From Spirochaetales bacterium (lineage in GTDB: Bacteria; Spirochaetota; Spirochaetia; Sphaerochaetales; Sphaerochaetaceae), in NCBI GenBank assembly GCA_003247345.1, contig QJZS01000004.1, forward strand, positions 1 through 47,692: DNA of 47,692 bases, given 5' to 3'. The position numbers and the translations under genes were made by a program. The notes under the pieces were generated by a model. That model was not told where the DNA came from. It searched no databases and worked only from the letters and a program-made list of their open reading frames with translations. Below are positions 23,609-39,845 of this stretch, piece after piece (the stretch's first letter is position 1; each line of letters starts with the position of its first letter).

Positions 23609-24490
23609 CTAGAGGAAGATATACGCTTCTATTTCTGAATCATAACTGAGTGAGGTAACCCCATGCTGGGTGGTTCCGATGAACTTGTCTTGAATATCCA
23701 ATTGTTTGACGGTCACAGTTCCTCCATCCTCAAAGGTAATCAAACCGCTGTGTACGGCAGCTGTTCCTATTGAGCTGTCATAGCTGTATGTTCCAGTTCC
23801 CCAAATTACATTTGGTGTTCCTCCTGGGGGCAACATGACGGTAAATTGGTCTCCAACTTGAAGATCAAGGAAGTCAACGGTGGTATTCCACGAAATCATG
23901 TTTGCATTCAGAGCTGATGGGAACAAAAGCTTGCCCGTTTTGTCGGTAAACATGTAACTGAAAGGCCAACTTCCATAGGGATTGGAAGTTACCCCTGCTT
24001 GGGTAGAACCTGTATAATAGGTTTGTCCATCAAGTATTTTGAAATACACCTTTCCGCCAGTTGCAAAGTCAATCAACTTGCTGTGGACCGCAGCTGAACC
24101 TATACTACTGTCGTTGGTGTAAATGTAGGTTCCCCAAACAGTATTGGGTGTTCCCCCAGGGGGTAAGGTTAGTGTGAAAACTTTTCCTACTTTTCCCTCA
24201 TACATAGTGGCATTTACAGCCCAAGGATCTACCCCTGCAAATTGGCGCTCTTCAGCTATTTCTGCTTCAGCCTCTATCGGTTCTGCAGGCTTTACAGCTA
24301 CAGGTTGTACAGGCGCGGCTACTGGTGTTGGAACTACAAGGTTAACTGGTGGAGTCACTGGTGCTGGAGCCGCAGGTTTTACAACTGGAGTCACCGGCAT
24401 TATTCCCTCTTCATGTGTGACGCAACCAAACAGTAAAAATGATAAGAGCAATACACTAATACCTAGCCCCAGAATTTTTCTCATAGACAA
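23609..24490 (-). CDS. Lipoprotein with two tandem LCCL domains
   Basis: Lipobox LLFGC; two copies of VWGTxxYxxDSSIGxAAVHSxLI...GGxVxxK..GxTQxGVTS. Confidence 0.8.
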   Translation of the reverse strand: MSMRKILGLGISVLLLSFLLFGCVTHEEGIMPVTPVVKPAAPAPVTPPVNLVVPTPVAAPVQPVAVKPAEPIEAEAEIAEERQFAGVDPWAVNATMYEGKVGKVFTLTLPPGGTPNTVWGTYIYTNDSSIGSAAVHSKLIDFATGGKVYFKILDGQTYYTGSTQAGVTSNPYGSWPFSYMFTDKTGKLLFPSALNANMISWNTTVDFLDLQVGDQFTVMLPPGGTPNVIWGTGTYSYDSSIGTAAVHSGLITFEDGGTVTVKQLDIQDKFIGTTQHGVTSLSYDSEIEAYIFL

Positions 24491-24805: not shown

Positions 24806-24833
24806 AACAAACGCTGGGTAATCGGCGTTTGTT
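24806..24833 (-). terminator. Hairpin AACAAACGC-N10-GCGTTTGTT at the stop of the NDK-like gene
   Basis: 9-bp perfect arms overlapping the stop codon; weak U-tract. Confidence 0.45.
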
Positions 24834-26016
24834 AGAGAGTTTTAAGGTACTCGTTGATCATAGTAACACTATCATTCTTCTCAGCTTCAAGGACGCCCAT
24901 TTCACGATAAGCATTCTCTGGAGCATCGGAAGCATGTGCAGCATTTACTCTGATATTCGAGCCGAATTCACGTCTGATGGTTCCTGCAACGGCCTTGTTT
25001 GGATCAGTGGCACCAAGAATGGTTCTAATCTTCTGAATGGCATCAACGCCTTCATAGATCAATACCATTGATTTTACCAAGCCTGGCTTGTTGAGGTTTT
25101 CTGCCTTGCAATCGCTTGGCTTAAGACCGGCCATGAACTCTACAATACGTTCGAATTGTTCTTCAGAGTACATATCCCCGAAGCTATCGGAGAGAATTGA
25201 CTGGAGCTGCTCAGGAAGTTTGACATTAAATTCACCTTCCAAAAGCTCACGAGCCTGCATTCCGTAAATTGGAGCCAACTTTGCTTTCAATCCATCTTTG
25301 GTAGGTCCATAGAATTGGAGTGCTTGTGCAACTGACATTTTCAGTACTTTGATGCCTACGATACGTAAGCCGCTTCTACTGAACATATCAATAATCATGC
25401 CGGGACGGCTGGATGCATATCTCCAGTTGTCTGGTTTGATGATGACAAGTGATTGCTGGGTGTTCTTGTAGTACTCAGCGGGTCTGTTCTTGATCAGATT
25501 GTTCTGTCCTTCCAACCAAGGGGCGAACAAGGCAAGTGTCTTGTCAGCTTCTTTCTGGCTCTGGGCTGTGATTACAGCAGGTTCAAAGTAAAGGACTTTT
25601 TCTTGATTTTCGTCGGTATAGATCAAGTCAGCATAGGTGTCACGAATGGACATGCCGATGACTTGCTCAACGATACGAGTTTCCTTCTGAAAGAATCCAA
25701 CGACTTGTGCAAGTTCCTCACAGGGATTGTTCCCTTTGAATAACAACAACAAAGATCGATGTTTTACTCCAGAAGTAGGGCCTAAGTTCTGCTCAATATA
25801 CGACGAAAGCATCTCCGAGGTGTTGAATCCCTCATCCTTTTCCCTGGTTTTGATAATCGTTGCATAAGACTCAGTGATTGTCTGATCAAGGGCAATCATC
25901 TGTGCTCCAACGAGCTCAAGGGAGATGCGGGAGAGAAGTCTGGATAGAACCCCTCCTGTTCTGCTTTTTGCTACGGTATATGGGGTGACCAGAACATACG
26001 ATAAGGACTGTTCCAT
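24832..26016 (-). CDS. Tandem nucleoside-diphosphate-kinase-like protein
   Basis: C-terminal half SLVIIKPDNWRYASSRPGMIIDMFSRSGLRIVGIKVLKM ... ATDPNKAVAGTIRREFGSNIRVNAAHASDAPENAYREM; N-terminal half SYVLVTPYTVAKSRTGGVLSRLLSRISLELVGAQMIAL. Confidence 0.75.
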   Translation of the reverse strand: MEQSLSYVLVTPYTVAKSRTGGVLSRLLSRISLELVGAQMIALDQTITESYATIIKTREKDEGFNTSEMLSSYIEQNLGPTSGVKHRSLLLLFKGNNPCEELAQVVGFFQKETRIVEQVIGMSIRDTYADLIYTDENQEKVLYFEPAVITAQSQKEADKTLALFAPWLEGQNNLIKNRPAEYYKNTQQSLVIIKPDNWRYASSRPGMIIDMFSRSGLRIVGIKVLKMSVAQALQFYGPTKDGLKAKLAPIYGMQARELLEGEFNVKLPEQLQSILSDSFGDMYSEEQFERIVEFMAGLKPSDCKAENLNKPGLVKSMVLIYEGVDAIQKIRTILGATDPNKAVAGTIRREFGSNIRVNAAHASDAPENAYREMGVLEAEKNDSVTMINEYLKTL

Positions 26017-30871: not shown

Positions 30872-31945
30872 ATGAATCTCGCAGTTCAAGAGAAAGAGCC
30901 CGCAAGGCTGTACGACACACCTCTTCTGCATCAGTCTTATTTCTGGTCTCAGGTAAAGCAAAATCAAGGCTTTAATATCAAGGCGTTCGATATCAAGACA
31001 CGACTTTCCGATCTTAATGGGAAACCAAGCTCGTCCTATCTTTTGGACGACGTCATGGTGCAACTCATTCCGATCAATCGGAAGAACAGCATCGCATATA
31101 TCCCGTACGGACCTACTTTATTGCCCAATGAAGACCGTATGGGATCCTTCCTTGAGGATCTTTCCATGCATCTGAGAGAAGTTCTTCCCCCTGAATGCAT
31201 TCTGCTGCGTTACGACCTTCCCTGGCAGTCAATCTGGGATGAGGAGGATGTCCCAAGATCATTGCAGAATGTCAGGCTCAACTGGGGGACAAGTAAGAAA
31301 CTTCTCAGAAAGGCTGTGTCTAATCAATTACCAAGTCACACCATGTTTATCGACCTCAGACAAGATGAAGATGAAATTCTCTATCGTATGCATCATAAGA
31401 CTCGTTACAATATTCGTCTCGCCTTGCGTAAGGGGGTAGAGGTAAAGCAAGTGGGGCCTGGGTATCTGCAAGCATTTTATGATTTATATCAACAAACATG
31501 CGAACGTAATCACATCACCTTGCATGATCGTTCATTTTTTGATGCCTTGTACCAAGCTGAGGATAGTGATGCCGGTATTGTACTTTTGATGGCATTTCTC
31601 GAGGATCAACCACTTAGCGCCATGTTCCTCAGTCGCTCCGCCAATCAGGCAACGTACCTCTATGGGGCTTCCTCTTCATCTAGACGAAACAGCATGAGCA
31701 CCTATGCCTTGCAATGGGCAGCAATCAAACTGGCCAAAAGCTGGGGATGCACTGATTATGACATGTTCGGGGTATCCTCATCCGGCGATACAAGCCACCC
31801 CATGCATGGCCTCTATACGTTCAAAAAAGGTTTTGGAGGATGGGCATACGAGCGTATGGGCTGTTGGGATTTCGCTTTTAATGAAGAACTTGCCAATGAA
31901 CTATTTGCTTATGAGATGGTAGATAGCGGGTATCATCTTCGCTGA
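30872..31945 (+). CDS. FemAB/lipid II peptidyltransferase-like GNAT family protein
   Basis: RYNIRLALRKGVEV, DMFGVSSSGDTSHPMHGLYTFKKGFGG motifs of the FemAB family. Confidence 0.8.
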   Translation: MNLAVQEKEPARLYDTPLLHQSYFWSQVKQNQGFNIKAFDIKTRLSDLNGKPSSSYLLDDVMVQLIPINRKNSIAYIPYGPTLLPNEDRMGSFLEDLSMHLREVLPPECILLRYDLPWQSIWDEEDVPRSLQNVRLNWGTSKKLLRKAVSNQLPSHTMFIDLRQDEDEILYRMHHKTRYNIRLALRKGVEVKQVGPGYLQAFYDLYQQTCERNHITLHDRSFFDALYQAEDSDAGIVLLMAFLEDQPLSAMFLSRSANQATYLYGASSSSRRNSMSTYALQWAAIKLAKSWGCTDYDMFGVSSSGDTSHPMHGLYTFKKGFGGWAYERMGCWDFAFNEELANELFAYEMVDSGYHLR

Positions 31946-32904
31946 AAGAGAACGGTTACCACCCCTCCGCATATCATTCCTAAGGATCCAGCTTTCTCAT
32001 TGCTCAAATCATAAGTCTTGGTGAAAGCAGACTGACTAGGATTAAGCAGCATCGATTTTGCCTCTTCAATGGTTCTGGCTTCAACTTCACCTCCACCGAC
32101 GGTGCCTAAAAACGTAAAGTCCTTGAATACAGCTAACTGGAATCCTACTTCACAGGGAGCTGAACCATGCTTCTCTATGACTCTGGCAACGATATGTTGC
32201 TCTCCTGTACTTTGGCGCAAGAGCAATTCCTCACTGAGCCTGACAGCTTGTTCGGTTTTTCGATATACGCTGATTACCTCTCCTAAGATTGCCAAAGCAA
32301 TCTCTGCTGCGGTAACAGCCCCTATATCCAAGCCGATTGGTGCATGGACAGTAGCCAGTTGTGATTCAGAGAATCCTTCTTCCCTCAATTGTTCGAAGGT
32401 AGTTGCAACCTTTCTTTTACTTCCTATCATCCCAATATAGGAATGGGGGAGACCAAGGGTTTTTTCCAGACAGACTTTATCAAAAGCATGACCTCTGGTT
32501 GCAATAATGAAATAAGGCCGAATCCACGCTTGAGGTGTATCAAGTACTTCCTCAAAAGGAGCACAGATACACTGGGCCTGGGGAAATCGCTGTGGATTGC
32601 AATATTCACTGCGGTCATCGATTATGGTTACTTTCAAAGCGAGATCCATTGCAAGATGATACAGGTCGAGTGCGATATGTCCGCCTCCGAACAAGACCAA
32701 GTGTACCTCTGATGCAAGATTTTCCACCAAAAGATCGGAGGAAGCCCAATCATGCTCGTGTTGGGCATACGTGGCAACCACTTTGGAGTCTTGCAATAAT
32801 GCCTCATCTCCAATATAAGGACCGTTAGTTACGGTTTTTCGTTGTACCGATTGTATTTTCAAAGCGTTCAATAAGTTCTTGTAATATGTTTTGGTATCCA
32901 TCAT
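31933..32904 (-). CDS. XdhC family protein, Rossmann domain first and XdhC_CoxI-like domain second
   Basis: VLFGGGHIALDLYHLA, TRGHAFD, YIGMIGSKRKVATTFEQLREEG, APIGLDIGAVTAAEIALAILGEV, then ARVIEKHGSAPCEVG...LGTVGGGEVEA. Confidence 0.85.
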   Translation of the reverse strand: MMDTKTYYKNLLNALKIQSVQRKTVTNGPYIGDEALLQDSKVVATYAQHEHDWASSDLLVENLASEVHLVLFGGGHIALDLYHLAMDLALKVTIIDDRSEYCNPQRFPQAQCICAPFEEVLDTPQAWIRPYFIIATRGHAFDKVCLEKTLGLPHSYIGMIGSKRKVATTFEQLREEGFSESQLATVHAPIGLDIGAVTAAEIALAILGEVISVYRKTEQAVRLSEELLLRQSTGEQHIVARVIEKHGSAPCEVGFQLAVFKDFTFLGTVGGGEVEARTIEEAKSMLLNPSQSAFTKTYDLSNEKAGSLGMICGGVVTVLFQRR

Positions 32905-34031
32905 TCCTCCAGTATCAGTTTTAAAGCCTCAATGGTAGTTTCTATTTCTTCTTTGGTTGTAGTATAACCCATACTAAATCGTATCGTTCCATTTGGAAAT
33001 GTGTGCATGCTTTTATGTGCCAACGGGGCACAATGCAGTCCTACTCGCGTCTCAATTCCGAATCTTGATTCCAATAGATAGCTGATTTGAGATAACTCTT
33101 TGCCAGGGATATCGATGCTTATAACAGCAGTTCGTTCAGCCATGGTTTTTGGCCCGATTACTTTGATTCGTGAATCTGATAATAAATAAGTAAGTAATTG
33201 TCCTGCACATGTATAGGCATCAGTTCCTTGGTAAGGTAAGAAATCCAATGCAGCTGACAATCCGGCTATACCTACTAGATTTTGTGTACCCGCCTCAAGG
33301 CGGTCAGGAAATGTTGGTGGCATCTGAAGAGAAGAACTATAGCTTCCAGTTCCTCCTCCTAAAATAGGTTGTATACTTTTCGATACAGCCGAGCTCAACA
33401 CCAATCCACCGGTACCTTGAGGCCCTAGAAGTCCTTTATGCCCAGTGAATGCAATTGCATCTATCACGCCTTCTTCCAATTTTGATGGTACATGTGGGGC
33501 GCTTTGTGCACTATCGATATACGTTAGCAAGCCATATCTATGAGCAAGAGTACCAGCTTCCCTTATGGGTTGAATAGTGCCTGTTACATTGCTTGCACCA
33601 GTGAGGATCAATGCTTTTGTATGGTTGTTAATGAAATTTGGAATTGTGTCGAATAAAATTTTACCATCAGGGTCAGACGGCACTATTGTGTAGGGAATCT
33701 TATGGACTTCCAATGCTCGTACTACTGCATTATGCTCCATTGAGCTGATAAGCACATGGTCCTTTTCGGTTAATGTCCCTGCGATCAGTTGGTTCAGTGC
33801 ATGTGTGACATTTAATGCAAATGTCACATTTCGTGAATTGCTTGCACCAAAAAACAATGCAAGTTTGCTTCTGCATCCACCAACCATATCTTCCGTTTGG
33901 TATGCACTCTCGTAACTTCCCCTTCCAGAATTTGAGCCAATTTCAACCAGGTATTGTTGCATTGCAGCGGCAACCTGCGGGGCTTTTGGAAATGCTGTTG
34001 CTCCGTTATCTAAATAAATCCTTTTACCCAT
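32901..34031 (-). CDS. Cysteine desulfurase family protein (EF2568-like, selenium hydroxylase associated)
   Basis: IYLDNGATAFPKAPQVAAAM, DSAQSAPHVP, FTGHKGLLGPQGTGGL; start at MGKRIYLDNG. Confidence 0.88.
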   Translation of the reverse strand: MGKRIYLDNGATAFPKAPQVAAAMQQYLVEIGSNSGRGSYESAYQTEDMVGGCRSKLALFFGASNSRNVTFALNVTHALNQLIAGTLTEKDHVLISSMEHNAVVRALEVHKIPYTIVPSDPDGKILFDTIPNFINNHTKALILTGASNVTGTIQPIREAGTLAHRYGLLTYIDSAQSAPHVPSKLEEGVIDAIAFTGHKGLLGPQGTGGLVLSSAVSKSIQPILGGGTGSYSSSLQMPPTFPDRLEAGTQNLVGIAGLSAALDFLPYQGTDAYTCAGQLLTYLLSDSRIKVIGPKTMAERTAVISIDIPGKELSQISYLLESRFGIETRVGLHCAPLAHKSMHTFPNGTIRFSMGYTTTKEEIETTIEALKLILEE

Positions 34032-34123
34032 AGTTTGATGGTACAGGATAAATTGAGAAAAATCCATTGCAGAAACAAAAATATAATGGTTTACTAATTA
34101 ATGTACGTCTTAAAGGAGGGGAG

Positions 34124-35176
34124 ATGAAAAATACTGAACGCACAACAGTCATGACCGCTGGGGCACTACTTGGGGTGTTCTCCGTACTATTGGTGTATTT
34201 CGGAAATCCTGCAAATATGGGTTTCTGTATTGCCTGCTTCATCAGGGATTTTACGGGTAGCTTGCAATTCCAAACAAAAGCAGGGGTGCAATATGCCAGA
34301 CCTGAGATTTTGGGCTTAATTCTTGGTTCTTTTCTTATAAGTTCAATAAAGAAAGAATTTAGTCCGCGTGGTGGATCTTCAACAATGCTTAGATTTTTTA
34401 TCTCAGTGTTTGTGATGATCGGGGCATTAGTATTCCTTGGATGTCCAGCCCGTATGTGGCTTAGAATCGCTGGAGGCGATTTGAATGCAGTCGTGGGACT
34501 GGTTGGGTACATCCTTGGAATAGGAGTCGGTGCAATCTTTCTAAATAAGGGATTCAGCCTGGGGCGAGCGTACCTTCAGAAAAAGACTGAGGGATCTATT
34601 GGAATCGTTGTGACTATCGCTCTTGTGTTGGTAGTTTTGTTTGTTCCTTCACTTTTAATCAATTCTAGTAAGGCTTATGCCCCTGCCGTATTGAGCTTAG
34701 TACTCGCTCTTATCCTAGGTGGAGTAGCCCAACGAAGCAGGTTGTGTACTGTAGGGTCCTTCAGAGATTTCTTCCTTTTTAGAGATACGACTTTGTTGAC
34801 CGGGTCTCTTATGATTCTGCTCACTGCATTTATTGGAAATATTATTACCGGTAATTTCCATTTGGGGTTTGCAAATCAACCAATTGCTCATACTGAAGCA
34901 CTTTGGAATATTCTGGGCCTTTTTGTAGTGGGGTTTGGTTCGGTGCTCATTGGGGGATGCCCATTGCGGCAACTTATTTTAGCCGGCGAGGGAAATACGG
35001 ATAGCATGGTTTGTATCCTAGGATTGGCAACAGGTGCTGCGCTTGCCCACAACTTTGGTTTGGCTTCATCATCTGCTGGAACAACTTCAGCAGGGAGAAT
35101 AGCTGTTCTTTTAGGGATTGCATTCTTGTTCGTTATCGCTGGTACTGTGCGTAAGGAGGTAGTACATGCAAATTGA
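34124..35176 (+). CDS. yedE: YedE family putative selenium transporter
   Basis: GNPANMGFCIACFIRDFTGSLQ, FLGCPARMWLRIAGGD, QRSRLCTVGSFRDFFLFRD, IGGCPLRQLILAGEGNTDS; next to yedF/selD. Confidence 0.88.
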   Translation: MKNTERTTVMTAGALLGVFSVLLVYFGNPANMGFCIACFIRDFTGSLQFQTKAGVQYARPEILGLILGSFLISSIKKEFSPRGGSSTMLRFFISVFVMIGALVFLGCPARMWLRIAGGDLNAVVGLVGYILGIGVGAIFLNKGFSLGRAYLQKKTEGSIGIVVTIALVLVVLFVPSLLINSSKAYAPAVLSLVLALILGGVAQRSRLCTVGSFRDFFLFRDTTLLTGSLMILLTAFIGNIITGNFHLGFANQPIAHTEALWNILGLFVVGFGSVLIGGCPLRQLILAGEGNTDSMVCILGLATGAALAHNFGLASSSAGTTSAGRIAVLLGIAFLFVIAGTVRKEVVHAN

Positions 35177-35372
35177 CACGAGGGGTTTATCTTGTCCACA
35201 ACCAGTAATTGAGACAAAAAAAGTTCTTGATACAAAAGTAGAACAAGCAACCGTGCTTGTTGATACCATTGCAGCAAAAGAGAATGTTTCTCGGTATGCA
35301 AAAGCTGCGAAATACAGTGTTGAAGTGAACGAAACTTCAGATGGATGGAGCTTGGAGCTGCATAAACTATGA
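35166..35372 (+). CDS. yedF: TusA/SirA domain protein (YedF-like, TusA domain only)
   Basis: MQIDTRGLSCPQPVIETKKVL CPxP motif; overlaps yedE stop. Confidence 0.85.
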   Translation: MQIDTRGLSCPQPVIETKKVLDTKVEQATVLVDTIAAKENVSRYAKAAKYSVEVNETSDGWSLELHKL

Positions 35373-35620
35373 ACGAATATTTGGTGACCTTCTTTGATCA
35401 TCATGGAGCGGTGCAATTCAGAAAGTTCGCTCGTTCCATTGCCGTACGATGTGTTTTGTCTCCAGTACCTAGAAAACTCTCTACTTCCTGTGGGACATGT
35501 GCACGTTATACGGCAATTCATTGGGACATTGGTTTCAAGAAAGATGAATTAGAAGCAGTCTATCAAAATGATAATGAAAAATTCACGATTTGCTATACCA
35601 ATGGAGGTATGCATGAATAA
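35369..35620 (+). CDS. DUF3343 (putative Se/S carrier-like) protein
   Basis: YLVTFFDHHGAVQFRKFA...PVPRKLSTSCGTCARY; ATGA overlap with yedF. Confidence 0.75.
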   Translation: MNEYLVTFFDHHGAVQFRKFARSIAVRCVLSPVPRKLSTSCGTCARYTAIHWDIGFKKDELEAVYQNDNEKFTICYTNGGMHE

Positions 35621-36635
35621 GACACTAACCAGTCTGGTCAAATCCAGCGGGTGTGCGGCCAAGTTGCCTGCAAAAGAATTGGAGGCGGTATTAGCATCAC
35701 TTCCAAAAGCTGATGATCCTCTTTTGGTTGGAGGATACGAAAGCAATGATGATGCCTTAGCCTATAGATTGGGTGATGGAAGATTACTCCTGCAAACGGT
35801 AGATTTTTTCCCTCCCATGTTTGATGATCCTTATGTATTTGGGCAAGTAGCTGCAGCAAATGCACTCAGTGATGTTTATGCTATGGGGGGAAAACCTGCA
35901 ATTTGCATGAACATTGTCTGTTTTCCTTCCTGTCTTCCCATTGGGGACCTGCAAAAGATTCTTCAGGGTGGACAAAGTAAGGTAGCCGAATGCGGAGCTG
36001 TGATAGCGGGAGGTCATACGATCAGTGACCCGACACCCAAATACGGTTTAAGTGTAACAGGCTTTGTTGATGAAGATAAACTGTGGAAAAATGATTCAGC
36101 ACAAGCCGGTGATTTGCTCGTCCTCACAAAAAGCATTGGTGTGGGTATTCTCATGACAGCCCTTAAGGCAAAGGCTGCCGATGAGAAATACACGAACGTA
36201 GCATTAAAACAAATGACAACGCTGAACAAATATGCCCAGGAGGCCGTATTACCATACGAGGTGCACAGTGCCACTGATATTACCGGTTTTTCCCTTTTAG
36301 GGCATAGTTCGGAAATGGCCTTGGCCAGTGGGGTGCAGATTATACTTGATGCAGAGGCAATTCCTGTATTGGATGGAACCGCTGAGTATGCGATTCAAGG
36401 TTACAATCCCGGCGGTCTCTATCATAATAGAGATTACATCCATGAACGGGTAACGCTTGCATCAGAGCTTGCTCAACAGATGGATGATATTCTTTATTGT
36501 CCCGAGACGAGCGGAGGCCTGCTGTTAAGTATGGAAGCCACTGCAGCAAAAGCGTTCAGCAAAGCGAGTGGCTATCCAATCATAGGAAGGGTAGAAGCCC
36601 CTATTGAAGACAGAACTTTGATAACGGTGAATTAG
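35613..36635 (+). CDS. selD: Selenide, water dikinase (Cys form)
   Basis: LTSLVKSSGCAAKLPAKEL, DDALAYRLGDGRLLLQTVDFFPPMFDDPYVFGQVAAANALSDVYAMGGKP. Confidence 0.95.
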   Translation: MNKTLTSLVKSSGCAAKLPAKELEAVLASLPKADDPLLVGGYESNDDALAYRLGDGRLLLQTVDFFPPMFDDPYVFGQVAAANALSDVYAMGGKPAICMNIVCFPSCLPIGDLQKILQGGQSKVAECGAVIAGGHTISDPTPKYGLSVTGFVDEDKLWKNDSAQAGDLLVLTKSIGVGILMTALKAKAADEKYTNVALKQMTTLNKYAQEAVLPYEVHSATDITGFSLLGHSSEMALASGVQIILDAEAIPVLDGTAEYAIQGYNPGGLYHNRDYIHERVTLASELAQQMDDILYCPETSGGLLLSMEATAAKAFSKASGYPIIGRVEAPIEDRTLITVN

Positions 36636-38434
36636 GCTTTGCTGAGAAAGCCATCTAAGGCTTCCAATACAGAACCGGCAATTGCCATGGCCTTATCACT
36701 GACTGTTGTATGATCCGCGCGTTCGCCGCGCGGATCAATGTCAGCAATCTTGAATCGCTGGGGGACTTCTAGTCCGTTATTCAACAAACCTCTGAGCTTG
36801 CCATCGATGGTTGCCAGTACTTCAGTTTCTCCCACATGTCCAATCACTTGGCCTCGTCTGACGATATCTCCGATATGTGAATCGGAATGAAAGATGCCAG
36901 AAGACGGGCTATGGATAACTCTTTCTTTCCCGAATCCATCGATGATACCTGGAATACCTGTATTCTCGATTGCGGAACCTTCAGTTATTATTCTTCCAAG
37001 GCTATGTCCTCGTTTGGTTTCGATTACCACATCACAATCTTCTTTGGCAACAAACCCAGGCCCCAAGGCAATTACCAATGGGGCATCGGTAATTTTAGTT
37101 CCAAGATTACGTTTTGCTATGATTGCATCGATCACACACATCGGTTTTGCACTGATGATTGTATTTCCCTCTGGATCAGCGAGGATGGGGATAATACCTT
37201 CTTCAAGTAATGAGTATGCTTGCTTCAGATCAATGCATTTCTGAACTTTGAGGCCTTCTATGCTGATATTGTTATCATACATTGCCTGGGCAACGCTTAC
37301 TGTTGTTCTGATAACCGTCGGCTTCTCTATTTCCAACACAATTACTTGATAGCCTGCGCGATGAAGCCGAAGAATCGTACCTGTGGCAAGATCTCCACCA
37401 CCTCTGACAATCACTAACTTACTGGCTTGGTGTTTCAGGCTCTGTCCACCCTTGTGGTTAAATACTTTCATTACCTCAGCGATTACAGATACTGCAATCT
37501 CCTCAGGTGTTTCCGTACCAAGATCCAACCCGATGGGGCAGTGAACCCGTTCCAAATCTCTTTGGCCAAAGTTCATTGCTGACAATAGTTTCTTGGCTTT
37601 ATGTCGGGAACCAAGAACACCAAGGTAAGCAATGTCTCGTGCCAGCAGCAGTCGTGCAGCCTCTTCTCCAAAGGAGTGTGATGCAATGATGCAGGCAGTG
37701 TATTGGGTGGTGGAAACTCTGGAAAGGGCTTCTTTCAAAGTTGGGGCAACTTCGCGTTTCCTTGCATAGGTAAAAAGGTCTTCGGTTGCAAACTCTTCTC
37801 TAGTTTCAACAATCATGGTGGGAATACCCACAAAATGAGCAAGGTCAGCGATTGCTTGGTTTACATGGCCCCCTCCTATTAGGAGAAGATTGTGATAATT
37901 CACAGGTAGGCTGAAATGGCATGACCAGTCATTGGTGATCACCAATTTCCCATCCTTGGTATGCAATATTTCTTGTGCAGCACTAAGAAAAGTAGGATGA
38001 ACATCTCCGATGGTTGCACCGCCTTCACAGAGTCCGAGTAAAGCAACAGTAGGGCGTAATTGAAGGCCAAATACATTGTCTAGTTCATATACTTCCCATC
38101 TTCTGAAGGAAATAAAGGCCGTCCGCTCTTCTTGTGTTGTGCAACGAAGCAGAAATAAATATACGACACCGACGCTTTGTCCTGCTTCTTGTTGGACTGT
38201 AAACTGGACATATTTATATTTTTCCTTGTTTTCTAGCAAACTGATTGCTTGGGAAGAAACGTATGCTTCAAGCTCGCCCCCACCGATAGTTCCGGTAATT
38301 CCTGCTGAAGTATCGACAACCATGGAACCATGGTTTCGGCTGGTAGAACCTTCTGTCTTCAATATTGTCGCATACACAAATTCTTGCTTCTGCTCACTTA
38401 AATAGGCAGCTCTTTCTAGTACGGTGTGTTTCAT
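36632..38434 (-). CDS. yqeB: XdhC-YqeB fusion protein, selenium-dependent molybdenum hydroxylase maturation
   Basis: N-terminal XdhC domains (GTIGGGELEA, LLIGGGHVNQ, CPIGLDLGTETPEEIAVSV) joined in one ORF to the YqeB/EF2563 domain (LVIVRGGGDLATGTILRLHRAGYQVIVLEIEKPTVIRTTVSVAQAMYD). Confidence 0.88.
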   Translation of the reverse strand: MKHTVLERAAYLSEQKQEFVYATILKTEGSTSRNHGSMVVDTSAGITGTIGGGELEAYVSSQAISLLENKEKYKYVQFTVQQEAGQSVGVVYLFLLRCTTQEERTAFISFRRWEVYELDNVFGLQLRPTVALLGLCEGGATIGDVHPTFLSAAQEILHTKDGKLVITNDWSCHFSLPVNYHNLLLIGGGHVNQAIADLAHFVGIPTMIVETREEFATEDLFTYARKREVAPTLKEALSRVSTTQYTACIIASHSFGEEAARLLLARDIAYLGVLGSRHKAKKLLSAMNFGQRDLERVHCPIGLDLGTETPEEIAVSVIAEVMKVFNHKGGQSLKHQASKLVIVRGGGDLATGTILRLHRAGYQVIVLEIEKPTVIRTTVSVAQAMYDNNISIEGLKVQKCIDLKQAYSLLEEGIIPILADPEGNTIISAKPMCVIDAIIAKRNLGTKITDAPLVIALGPGFVAKEDCDVVIETKRGHSLGRIITEGSAIENTGIPGIIDGFGKERVIHSPSSGIFHSDSHIGDIVRRGQVIGHVGETEVLATIDGKLRGLLNNGLEVPQRFKIADIDPRGERADHTTVSDKAMAIAGSVLEALDGFLSKA

Positions 38435-38446
38435 ATAGTTCCCTTT

Positions 38447-39151
38447 TTATATCAGCAGATCTTTTTCCAATGAACCAAAAATAAGAGGGAGCTGTGTGCT
38501 TAATACCCTCATACGTTCAATGTGATTCTCCAAAACGGAATCTGCTTGGTTTCCCAGAATTACTTTTTCCCCAGCCATACGCTTTTGGATTCCTTGGGGA
38601 TGGGCAAGTAACATCTGAAATGTCTTCTCATCAATGGGGGTCGTATCGGTTTCGTCCCAACCAAAACAGTGCTGACCTATAGGCTTCCCCAAAACAGCAA
38701 GTGAAAAAATTGCCAGCGTGGCAGTTGTACATTCGGGAATCACTGGATCTCGATCAGTATGCAATTTCAAACCTTTTGATCTAGCCCCGTCAGCCTCCAA
38801 TAGCATGACATCATACTTGTCAGAAAGCATTGAAAAGTCTTGGAGTCGAGGGGCTTCCATTTTAACGTTTCCCTTTACTGCATAAAATACTCTCTGGCCG
38901 GCGTTGCAGTTATAAGAAAAAATCGAATGGTCATAAAAATATTGGTCGCATTGATAATCTCTTTGCGTAGGATACTGTAATTTTGTGGTTGTGGAAACCA
39001 ATACTCGTTTACCCAGGTGCGCGTAGGCTTCCGCAAGTTTAATCAAGGCTGTAGTTTTTCCACCACTGCCTGTGATACAAATGCATTTCTCATTACCTGA
39101 GAATTGTTGAAGGAGGGCTTTGATCAAGGAGCTCATAATGCACTGTACCAT
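38447..39151 (-). CDS. yqeC: Selenium cofactor biosynthesis protein YqeC-like
   Basis: CICITGSGGKTTALIKLAEAYAHLGKRVLVSTTTKLQYP; LLEADGARSKGLKLH. Confidence 0.88.
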   Translation of the reverse strand: MVQCIMSSLIKALLQQFSGNEKCICITGSGGKTTALIKLAEAYAHLGKRVLVSTTTKLQYPTQRDYQCDQYFYDHSIFSYNCNAGQRVFYAVKGNVKMEAPRLQDFSMLSDKYDVMLLEADGARSKGLKLHTDRDPVIPECTTATLAIFSLAVLGKPIGQHCFGWDETDTTPIDEKTFQMLLAHPQGIQKRMAGEKVILGNQADSVLENHIERMRVLSTQLPLIFGSLEKDLLI

Positions 39152-39227: not shown

Positions 39228-39845
39228 ATGAAGCAACAGAATGGATTTGTAGGAGTGGATATCATAGGAAATCGTTATGTTTTATGCAGTCTTGATGGGC
39301 AGTTGAAACATCCTCGATACGCCCGTGGTCGCACAGATACGCCTAAAGGCCAAAGAAAGTTTTTCTCTTGCATTGGAGAAGAAGCAAAGGTGATCATTTG
39401 TGAAGGGGAGCTTGCAAGTCTTGCATTGATGATATTGGGAAAAGACCGAGTATGTATCCAAGAAGAAAAATCCTCGTATTCGCTATGGCATGCAGCAGGT
39501 CTTGAAAGAGGAGAGGCTACAGCCTATTTTGCTGCCAAGAATATATCGTCAATTATTGGCCCAGTTGATTTGAATGAAGTGCAGAAATTAAAAATATTGG
39601 AGCTGCAAGGCAAAGTTATGGAGAAAATACAGACTATCGGGGATGAGAGTCAAATAATCATAGATCATATTCTCACGGACTCTGCAACGCCAAAGGATAT
39701 TGATTCTGCTTTTAAAAATGAGTACGACAGTGATTTTATCGAAAATGGATTACTCGAAGAACAACAACCAGAAATTCCTTCAATTTTGGATGGAGATACA
39801 AGTTTTCTTGGAGAAGTGTATGAAACACTGAAGGATATCAAATGA
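39228..39845 (+). CDS. Uncharacterised protein with weak resemblance to the N-terminal DEDD (RNase H-like) domain of IS110-type transposases
   Basis: FVGVDIIGNRYVLCSLDG...KVIICEGELASLALMIL; no catalytic C-terminal domain. Confidence 0.45.
   Translation: MKQQNGFVGVDIIGNRYVLCSLDGQLKHPRYARGRTDTPKGQRKFFSCIGEEAKVIICEGELASLALMILGKDRVCIQEEKSSYSLWHAAGLERGEATAYFAAKNISSIIGPVDLNEVQKLKILELQGKVMEKIQTIGDESQIIIDHILTDSATPKDIDSAFKNEYDSDFIENGLLEEQQPEIPSILDGDTSFLGEVYETLKDIK

Follow-up and report, generated by a model that had tools for sequence, protein, structure and literature searches.

A probable maturation island for a selenium-dependent molybdenum hydroxylase in Sphaerochaeta and its loading genes in relatives without SelD

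The window analyzed here is a stretch of 47,692 nucleotides, contig C146 of a 2.64-Mb metagenome-assembled genome (MAG) with 232 contigs and 91.6% completeness. The genome is placed in Sphaerochaeta, as its closest XdhC neighborhoods belong to named records including S. halotolerans. Eight densely packed genes at positions 31933 to 39151 encode a stand-alone XdhC, a desulfurase, YedE, a TusA protein, a DUF3343 protein, SelD, an XdhC-YqeB fusion, and YqeC. This island very probably carries the maturation genes of such a system, one built around a selenium-dependent molybdenum hydroxylase, and is divided into a supply module and a loading module. The part worth following is less the island itself than a set of related genomes which lack SelD but keep YqeB, YqeC, and the hydroxylase operon.

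Proposed supply and loading modules of the island

Genes were called by open reading frame (ORF) and profile searches (NCBIfam/TIGR and Pfam) with curated cutoffs in bits. All eight genes of a preliminary description of this DNA are present at the coordinates given there, with family matches well above chance. The supply module, comprising the desulfurase, YedE, TusA, DUF3343, and SelD, would provide activated selenium. Here, YedE may serve selenium entry or exit, the desulfurase would free selenium (or sulfur) as perselenide or persulfide, TusA and DUF3343 would carry it, and SelD would make selenophosphate. The loading module, consisting of the stand-alone XdhC, XdhC-YqeB, and YqeC, is proposed to bind a molybdenum cofactor (Moco) cytidylylated by a MocA-like protein encoded elsewhere and to set the terminal selenium ligand on the molybdenum. 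As the last step, the loading proteins would insert the completed cofactor into a hydroxylase encoded on another contig in a purine operon of the ygfK-ssnA-ygeY-ygfM type. We infer the chemistry of each step as well as the substrate; selenium would reside on the hydroxylase, and SelD would feed this enzyme alone. XdhC proteins are known to bind Moco and to assist its insertion (work of Neumann et al. 2006, as referenced in PMC2276186). The model of the YqeB domain (predicted local distance difference test [pLDDT] score of 93) shows a barrel-sandwich domain like that of biotin carrier proteins, with 67 columns aligned to biotin carboxyl carrier protein chains at a root mean square deviation of 1.3 to 1.4 Å, which agrees with the AccB similarity noted for YqeB of C. 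difficile. In our reading of a 17-sequence alignment, the hairpin holding the modified lysine is missing, so that a biotin-like swinging arm in YqeB is unlikely.

The preliminary description had seen neither selA, selB, nor a hydroxylase gene in this region and had inferred that the target enzyme lies elsewhere, and both statements hold. Contig C46 carries an operon of ygfK, ssnA, ygeY, an 8-oxoguanine-deaminase-type hydrolase, a ygfM-like FAD subunit, and a fused FeS/Mo subunit. The FeS/Mo subunit reaches 1246 bits with TIGR03313 (cutoff, 1102), ygfK reaches 1187 bits with TIGR03315 (cutoff, 835), and ssnA reaches 542 bits with TIGR03314 (cutoff, 455); ygeY is matched by TIGR03526, and the ygfM-like subunit stays under its own cutoff. 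C206 harbors another hydroxylase pair, of the XdhA/XdhB type, C58 and C102 carry partial hydroxylases, and the idea that the genome lacks a hydroxylase was rejected. The Mo subunit is present in 23 of 23 genomes of the genus examined.

Profile searches of the genome gave no match for selA or mnmH, and for selB they gave only elongation-factor-type matches, all under the cutoff. The genome's matches to the selC model RF01852 all stay under the gathering score; ARAGORN identified the eight examined as ordinary tRNAs for Ser, Leu, Gly, and Tyr, and the matches were rejected as selenocysteine tRNAs. No other selenophosphate user was found in the genome. With a MAG of this completeness, these absences are not absolute; the same pattern is seen family-wide.

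These results support the interpretation of the island as the known third selenium trait (SelD, YqeB, and YqeC with a selenium-dependent molybdenum hydroxylase), described by Haft and Self in 2008 (PMC2276186) and Zhang et al. in 2008 (PMC2432076). Enterococcus faecalis EF2563-EF2582 likewise shows an orphan SelD beside YqeB, YqeC, a SirA/TusA-like protein, an EF2568-type desulfurase, and XdhC, together with the purine genes ygfK, ssnA, and ygeY and without SelA, SelB, and YbbB; 75Se labeling in this organism, with its similar gene set, revealed a protein with labile selenium (PMC2432076). In contrast to E. faecalis, the island has its hydroxylase and a MocA-like protein encoded on other contigs, contains YedE and DUF3343, has TusA only instead of a two-domain YedF, and features YqeB fused to XdhC and a permuted stand-alone XdhC. 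The Flexilinea flocculi cluster (L165) also unites XdhC, YqeB, YqeC, DUF3343, desulfurase, TusA, YedE, and SelD side by side but has a canonical XdhC separate from YqeB, two yqeC copies, and another gene order. The XdhC-YqeB fusions of Haloarcula marismortui pNG700 and others resemble that of the island in lying close to selD and yqeC (PMC2276186 and PMC2432076), whereas pNG700 is an archaeal plasmid with only a distant SirA-like protein. C. difficile shares the markers yqeB, yqeC, and selD, with selD and yqeB genetically tied to xanthine and uric acid use (PMC11448449); unlike in the island, the genes are scattered, and selenoproteins are also made.

Several points weigh against this assignment. 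The TIGR03313 hydroxylase is not known to contain selenium. The search for a MobA-like (YgfJ) gene proposed in the preliminary description led to a MocA-like cytidylyltransferase on C159, which reaches only 132 bits with TIGR03310 (cutoff, 186), and the genome is a MAG in many contigs. A C. difficile ΔyqeC mutant shows no clear phenotype (PMC11448449). Finally, selD and yedE are missing from five sister genomes that retain yqeB, yqeC, xdhC, and the hydroxylase operon, indicating that the loading module need not be selenium specific.

Loading genes in relatives without SelD

Most of the genus shows the conserved order FemAB, permuted XdhC, XdhC-YqeB, YqeC, a gene of the type found at 39228, and AckA, with a variable stretch after the permuted XdhC. 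The loading genes are thus fixed in place, in favor of the two-module division, and the supply genes vary: depending on the genome, the desulfurase, YedE, TusA, DUF3343, and SelD are inserted wholly or partly in the FemAB-AckA array, sited elsewhere, or absent. Judged from these gene orders, the five genes act as a cassette separable from the loading genes. S. halotolerans (G041) and G092 carry them together at a second site. In G039, G044, and G093, this site holds 59 to 69 bp in place of the cassette of about 4.15 kb, and the flanks are 84 to 93% identical to those of G092 over several kilobases on both sides. G112 and G099 contain a related cassette (66 to 73% identical DNA) with flanks that do not match, and gene trees place the second cassette copy of G112 with G041 and G092 whereas the species tree does not, which suggests that the cassette moves.

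Two genomes show further rearrangements. G112 (L076:7165-8290 and L086:7123-10929) carries selD twice, once in two pieces and alone in the island and once in a full S. halotolerans-type cassette elsewhere. In G037 (L080:3190-14580), YedE-TusA-DUF3343-SelD is duplicated about 8.8 kb apart, with the second YedE reduced to its C-terminal half.

Genome-wide searches found neither SelD nor YedE in G039, G040, G044, G089, G093, and G028. G039 is a single contig, and G028, a draft without an empty-site test, is the weakest case. G039 and G044 have a scar in common and that of G093 is different, and the scar sequences do not decide between one and several losses. In the species tree, SelD-bearing G092 is nested among the SelD-less species with a support of 0.01 for the ordering node; therefore, one loss, several losses, and a regain in G092 would all be compatible with the tree.

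YqeB (over the cutoff) and YqeC occur in all six of these genomes, the permuted XdhC occurs in all but G028, and the ygfK-ssnA-ygeY-deaminase-ygfM-Mo operon is whole and in the same order in six of six. Pairwise ratios of nonsynonymous to synonymous substitution (dN/dS) among the SelD-less genomes are 0.04 to 0.08 for xdhC-yqeB, 0.07 to 0.13 for yqeC and the permuted xdhC, and 0.02 to 0.04 for the Mo subunit, with a dS of up to 1.3 and without stop codons in xdhC-yqeB, the permuted xdhC, and the Mo subunit of the pairs compared. In the five close genomes that keep all three loading genes, these genes and the hydroxylase operon are under purifying selection. Between SelD-bearing G092 and SelD-less G040, the dN of the Mo subunit is 0.005, and alignments of XdhC-YqeB, YqeC, and the Mo subunit contain no residue column separating SelD-less from SelD-bearing species. 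In the single-contig assembly of G039 (L063:4633-10016), a frameshift interrupts each of three genes, ackA, the 39228-type gene, and xdhC-yqeB; close relatives are intact, and the frameshifts are probably sequencing indels.

Two options exist for the SelD-less species: their loaders accept sulfur as well, or selenium is delivered without SelD. The first option, in which YqeB, YqeC, and XdhC would load the terminal chalcogen of molybdenum hydroxylases whatever its kind, using selenium where SelD is present and sulfur from a housekeeping desulfurase where it is not, with the selenium cassette as an optional upgrade, has somewhat less than an even chance of being correct. It is favored by the five genomes retaining all three loading proteins and the whole operon, the low dN/dS values without stop codons, the lack of SelD-separating columns, and the precise empty sites. 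Set against it are the C. difficile selD and yqeB mutants, which share one phenotype, with growth on xanthine and uric acid impaired in much the same way (PMC11448449), and the report of Haft and Self that TIGR03309 occurs only in selD-bearing genomes (PMC2276186). Furthermore, the loss may be too recent for decay, with a dS of only about 0.2 to 0.4 for G040/G044 and G093/G040. A 2016 survey treats YqeB plus YqeC as a signature and attributes partial sets to unfinished genomes or, possibly, selenium-independent roles (PMC5029168). The Sphaerochaeta genomes with YqeB, YqeC, and the hydroxylase operon but no SelD, one of them in a single contig, do not fit this signature. Tentatively, we propose that the supply genes form a portable Sphaerochaeta cassette independent of the loaders and the hydroxylase, that loaders and enzyme are functional without it, that YqeB and YqeC may serve both Mo=Se and Mo=S, and that YqeB plus YqeC would be an unreliable selenium signature. 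Since 2008, it has been asked by what route molybdenum hydroxylases receive their labile selenium and whether selenium is the only element handled by YqeB and YqeC. Sphaerochaeta offers a natural knockout series for addressing these questions, in which close species that carry or lack the cassette have the loaders in common and differ very little in the enzyme.

It is unlikely that the SelD-less species still load selenium on the hydroxylase without selenophosphate, from free selenide or from perselenide on a general desulfurase. The unchanged loader and enzyme sequences would fit, and whether the labile cofactor derives from selenophosphate is stated to be unknown (PMC11448449). However, YedE is lost in all SelD-less genomes, and none of the cassette's desulfurase, TusA, and DUF3343 genes is left where the empty site was mapped in three genomes, which points to a loss of selenium handling altogether.

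An assembly or detection gap is a quite improbable cause of the SelD-less state. In its favor, G031, G063, and G108 have yedE at a contig edge, and their lack of SelD was discounted for this reason; G028 is a draft, and G044 would be odd in carrying selC-selA-selB if its selD were truly missing. Nevertheless, the one-contig assembly of G039, the replacement of the cassette by a short scar between matching flanks in three genomes, and the parallel absence of YedE speak against a gap. The selC-selA-selB operon of G044 (C1, L082:9351-12583) belongs to a genome of two contigs in which no selD was detected, and the same site in G039 and G093 is without the operon. Either selD falls in an assembly gap of G044 or the operon exists without a selenophosphate source.

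Apparent cofactor-only selenium use in the family

The survey covered 121 genomes of the order, all from one family with 22 genera whose named members are Sphaerochaetaceae, and counted profiles over the cutoff. SelD is present in 105 genomes, YqeB in 112, SelA in 6, and MnmH in none. Among the SelD-bearing genomes, 100 of 105 lack SelA and 0 of 105 have MnmH. Cofactor-only selenium use is usually regarded as rare; from these counts, it looks like the default in this one spirochete family. Sphaerochaeta may already be listed in earlier work on this trait. That SelD also serves selenocysteine or selenouridine synthesis through genes lost in gaps of the incomplete MAG is very doubtful: selA does occur in a few genomes placed in the genus (G044, G096, and G099), but selA, selB, and selC, or mnmH, would all need to fall in the missing part, and the lack of selA is shared by nearly all SelD-bearing relatives.

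Gene identities and the permuted XdhC

The island is transcribed in three blocks on alternating strands (−, +, −), not in two as previously described, reading yqeC to yqeB (−), yedE to selD (+), and desulfurase to xdhC (−). The repeated start/stop overlaps noted earlier were found within the blocks. On the minus strand, the stand-alone XdhC (31933 to 32904; PF13478, 135 bits with a cutoff of 30, and PF02625) overlaps in an ATGA at 32901 to 32904 with the EF2568-type pyridoxal phosphate-dependent cysteine desulfurase or probable selenocysteine lyase (32901 to 34067, with a start at 34067 or 34031; TIGR01977, 377.1 bits with a cutoff of 377, and PF00266). With the start at 34031, a divergent intergenic region of 34032 to 34123 separates the desulfurase and yedE blocks; a promoter and terminator scan of this region gave nothing above shuffled sequences, and no Rfam elements were found in the window.

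On the plus strand, the putative selenium transporter YedE (34124 to 35176; TIGR04112, 442 bits with a cutoff of 200) most likely starts at ATG 34124, with AAAGGAGGGGAG upstream as the ribosome-binding site, rather than at TTG 34067, as in the listed ORF. It overlaps at 35166 to 35176 with the single-domain TusA/SirA-like carrier of 68 amino acids (35166 to 35372; PF01206, 61 bits with a cutoff of 29), which in turn overlaps at 35369 to 35372 with the DUF3343 selenium/sulfur carrier-like protein with a CxxC motif (35369 to 35620; PF11823, 40 bits with a cutoff of 25). SelD (35613 to 36635; TIGR00476, 365 bits with a cutoff of 125; PDB 3u0o and others) is listed from ATG 35568, and its likely start at 35613 overlaps with DUF3343 at 35613 to 35620. 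Its active position is Cys rather than selenocysteine (SSGCAAKL), as first described. At 36632 to 36635, selD and yqeB meet tail to tail with overlapping stop codons. The minus strand continues with the XdhC-YqeB fusion of CoxI, Rossmann, and YqeB domains (36632 to 38434; TIGR03309, 344 bits with a cutoff of 220 at residues 341 to 593; PF02625/PF13478) and YqeC (38447 to 39151; TIGR03172, 132 bits with a cutoff of 73; PF19842). The earlier marker set stands for YqeB, YqeC, YedE, and DUF3343 beside an orphan SelD but not for YedF. The TusA protein reaches 62 bits with the YedF model TIGR03527 (cutoff, 110), matches only positions 1 to 60 of 194, and lacks the second, C-terminal DsrE-like domain, which rules out YedF.

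In the stand-alone XdhC, the middle region and Rossmann domain come first: XdhC_C (PF13478; residues 69 to 210) precedes XdhC_CoxI (PF02625; residues 233 to 288), both above the gathering score, which is opposite to the usual arrangement. Within XdhC-YqeB, the XdhC portion shows the canonical order (PF02625 and then PF13478). Against PDB 2we7 and 3on5, the two domains match in swapped order, and against NF045664 (XdhC_rel_AOR), the protein scores 255 bits as two out-of-order stretches, short of the 350-bit whole-protein cutoff. A confident AlphaFold2 model from an 11-sequence alignment (pLDDT, 90) has its best Foldseek matches in 2we8 and 3on5. The 220 to 246 alignment columns and the template modeling score of about 0.5 against XdhC structures are consistent with a permutation, which a sequential aligner cannot fully match. 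Many genera of the family have the permuted order and several others the usual one; the permuted order also occurs in Clostridia (L150 to L153), where yqeB adjoins in three of four loci (L150, L152, and L153); a feature unique to the window genome was thus rejected. A literature search for a permuted XdhC found nothing.

Three further proteins of the window stand out. The 205-amino-acid protein at 39228 to 39845 has no Pfam or NCBIfam match and keeps its position between yqeC and ackA across Sphaerochaeta at 30 to 49% identity. The 394-amino-acid protein at 24832 to 26016 shows an unusual layout, with a nucleoside-diphosphate-kinase domain matched as two stretches, best at residues 316 to 375 near the C-terminal end. 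The 293-amino-acid protein at 23609 to 24490 contains two stretches of the LCCL domain, which is better known in eukaryotes.

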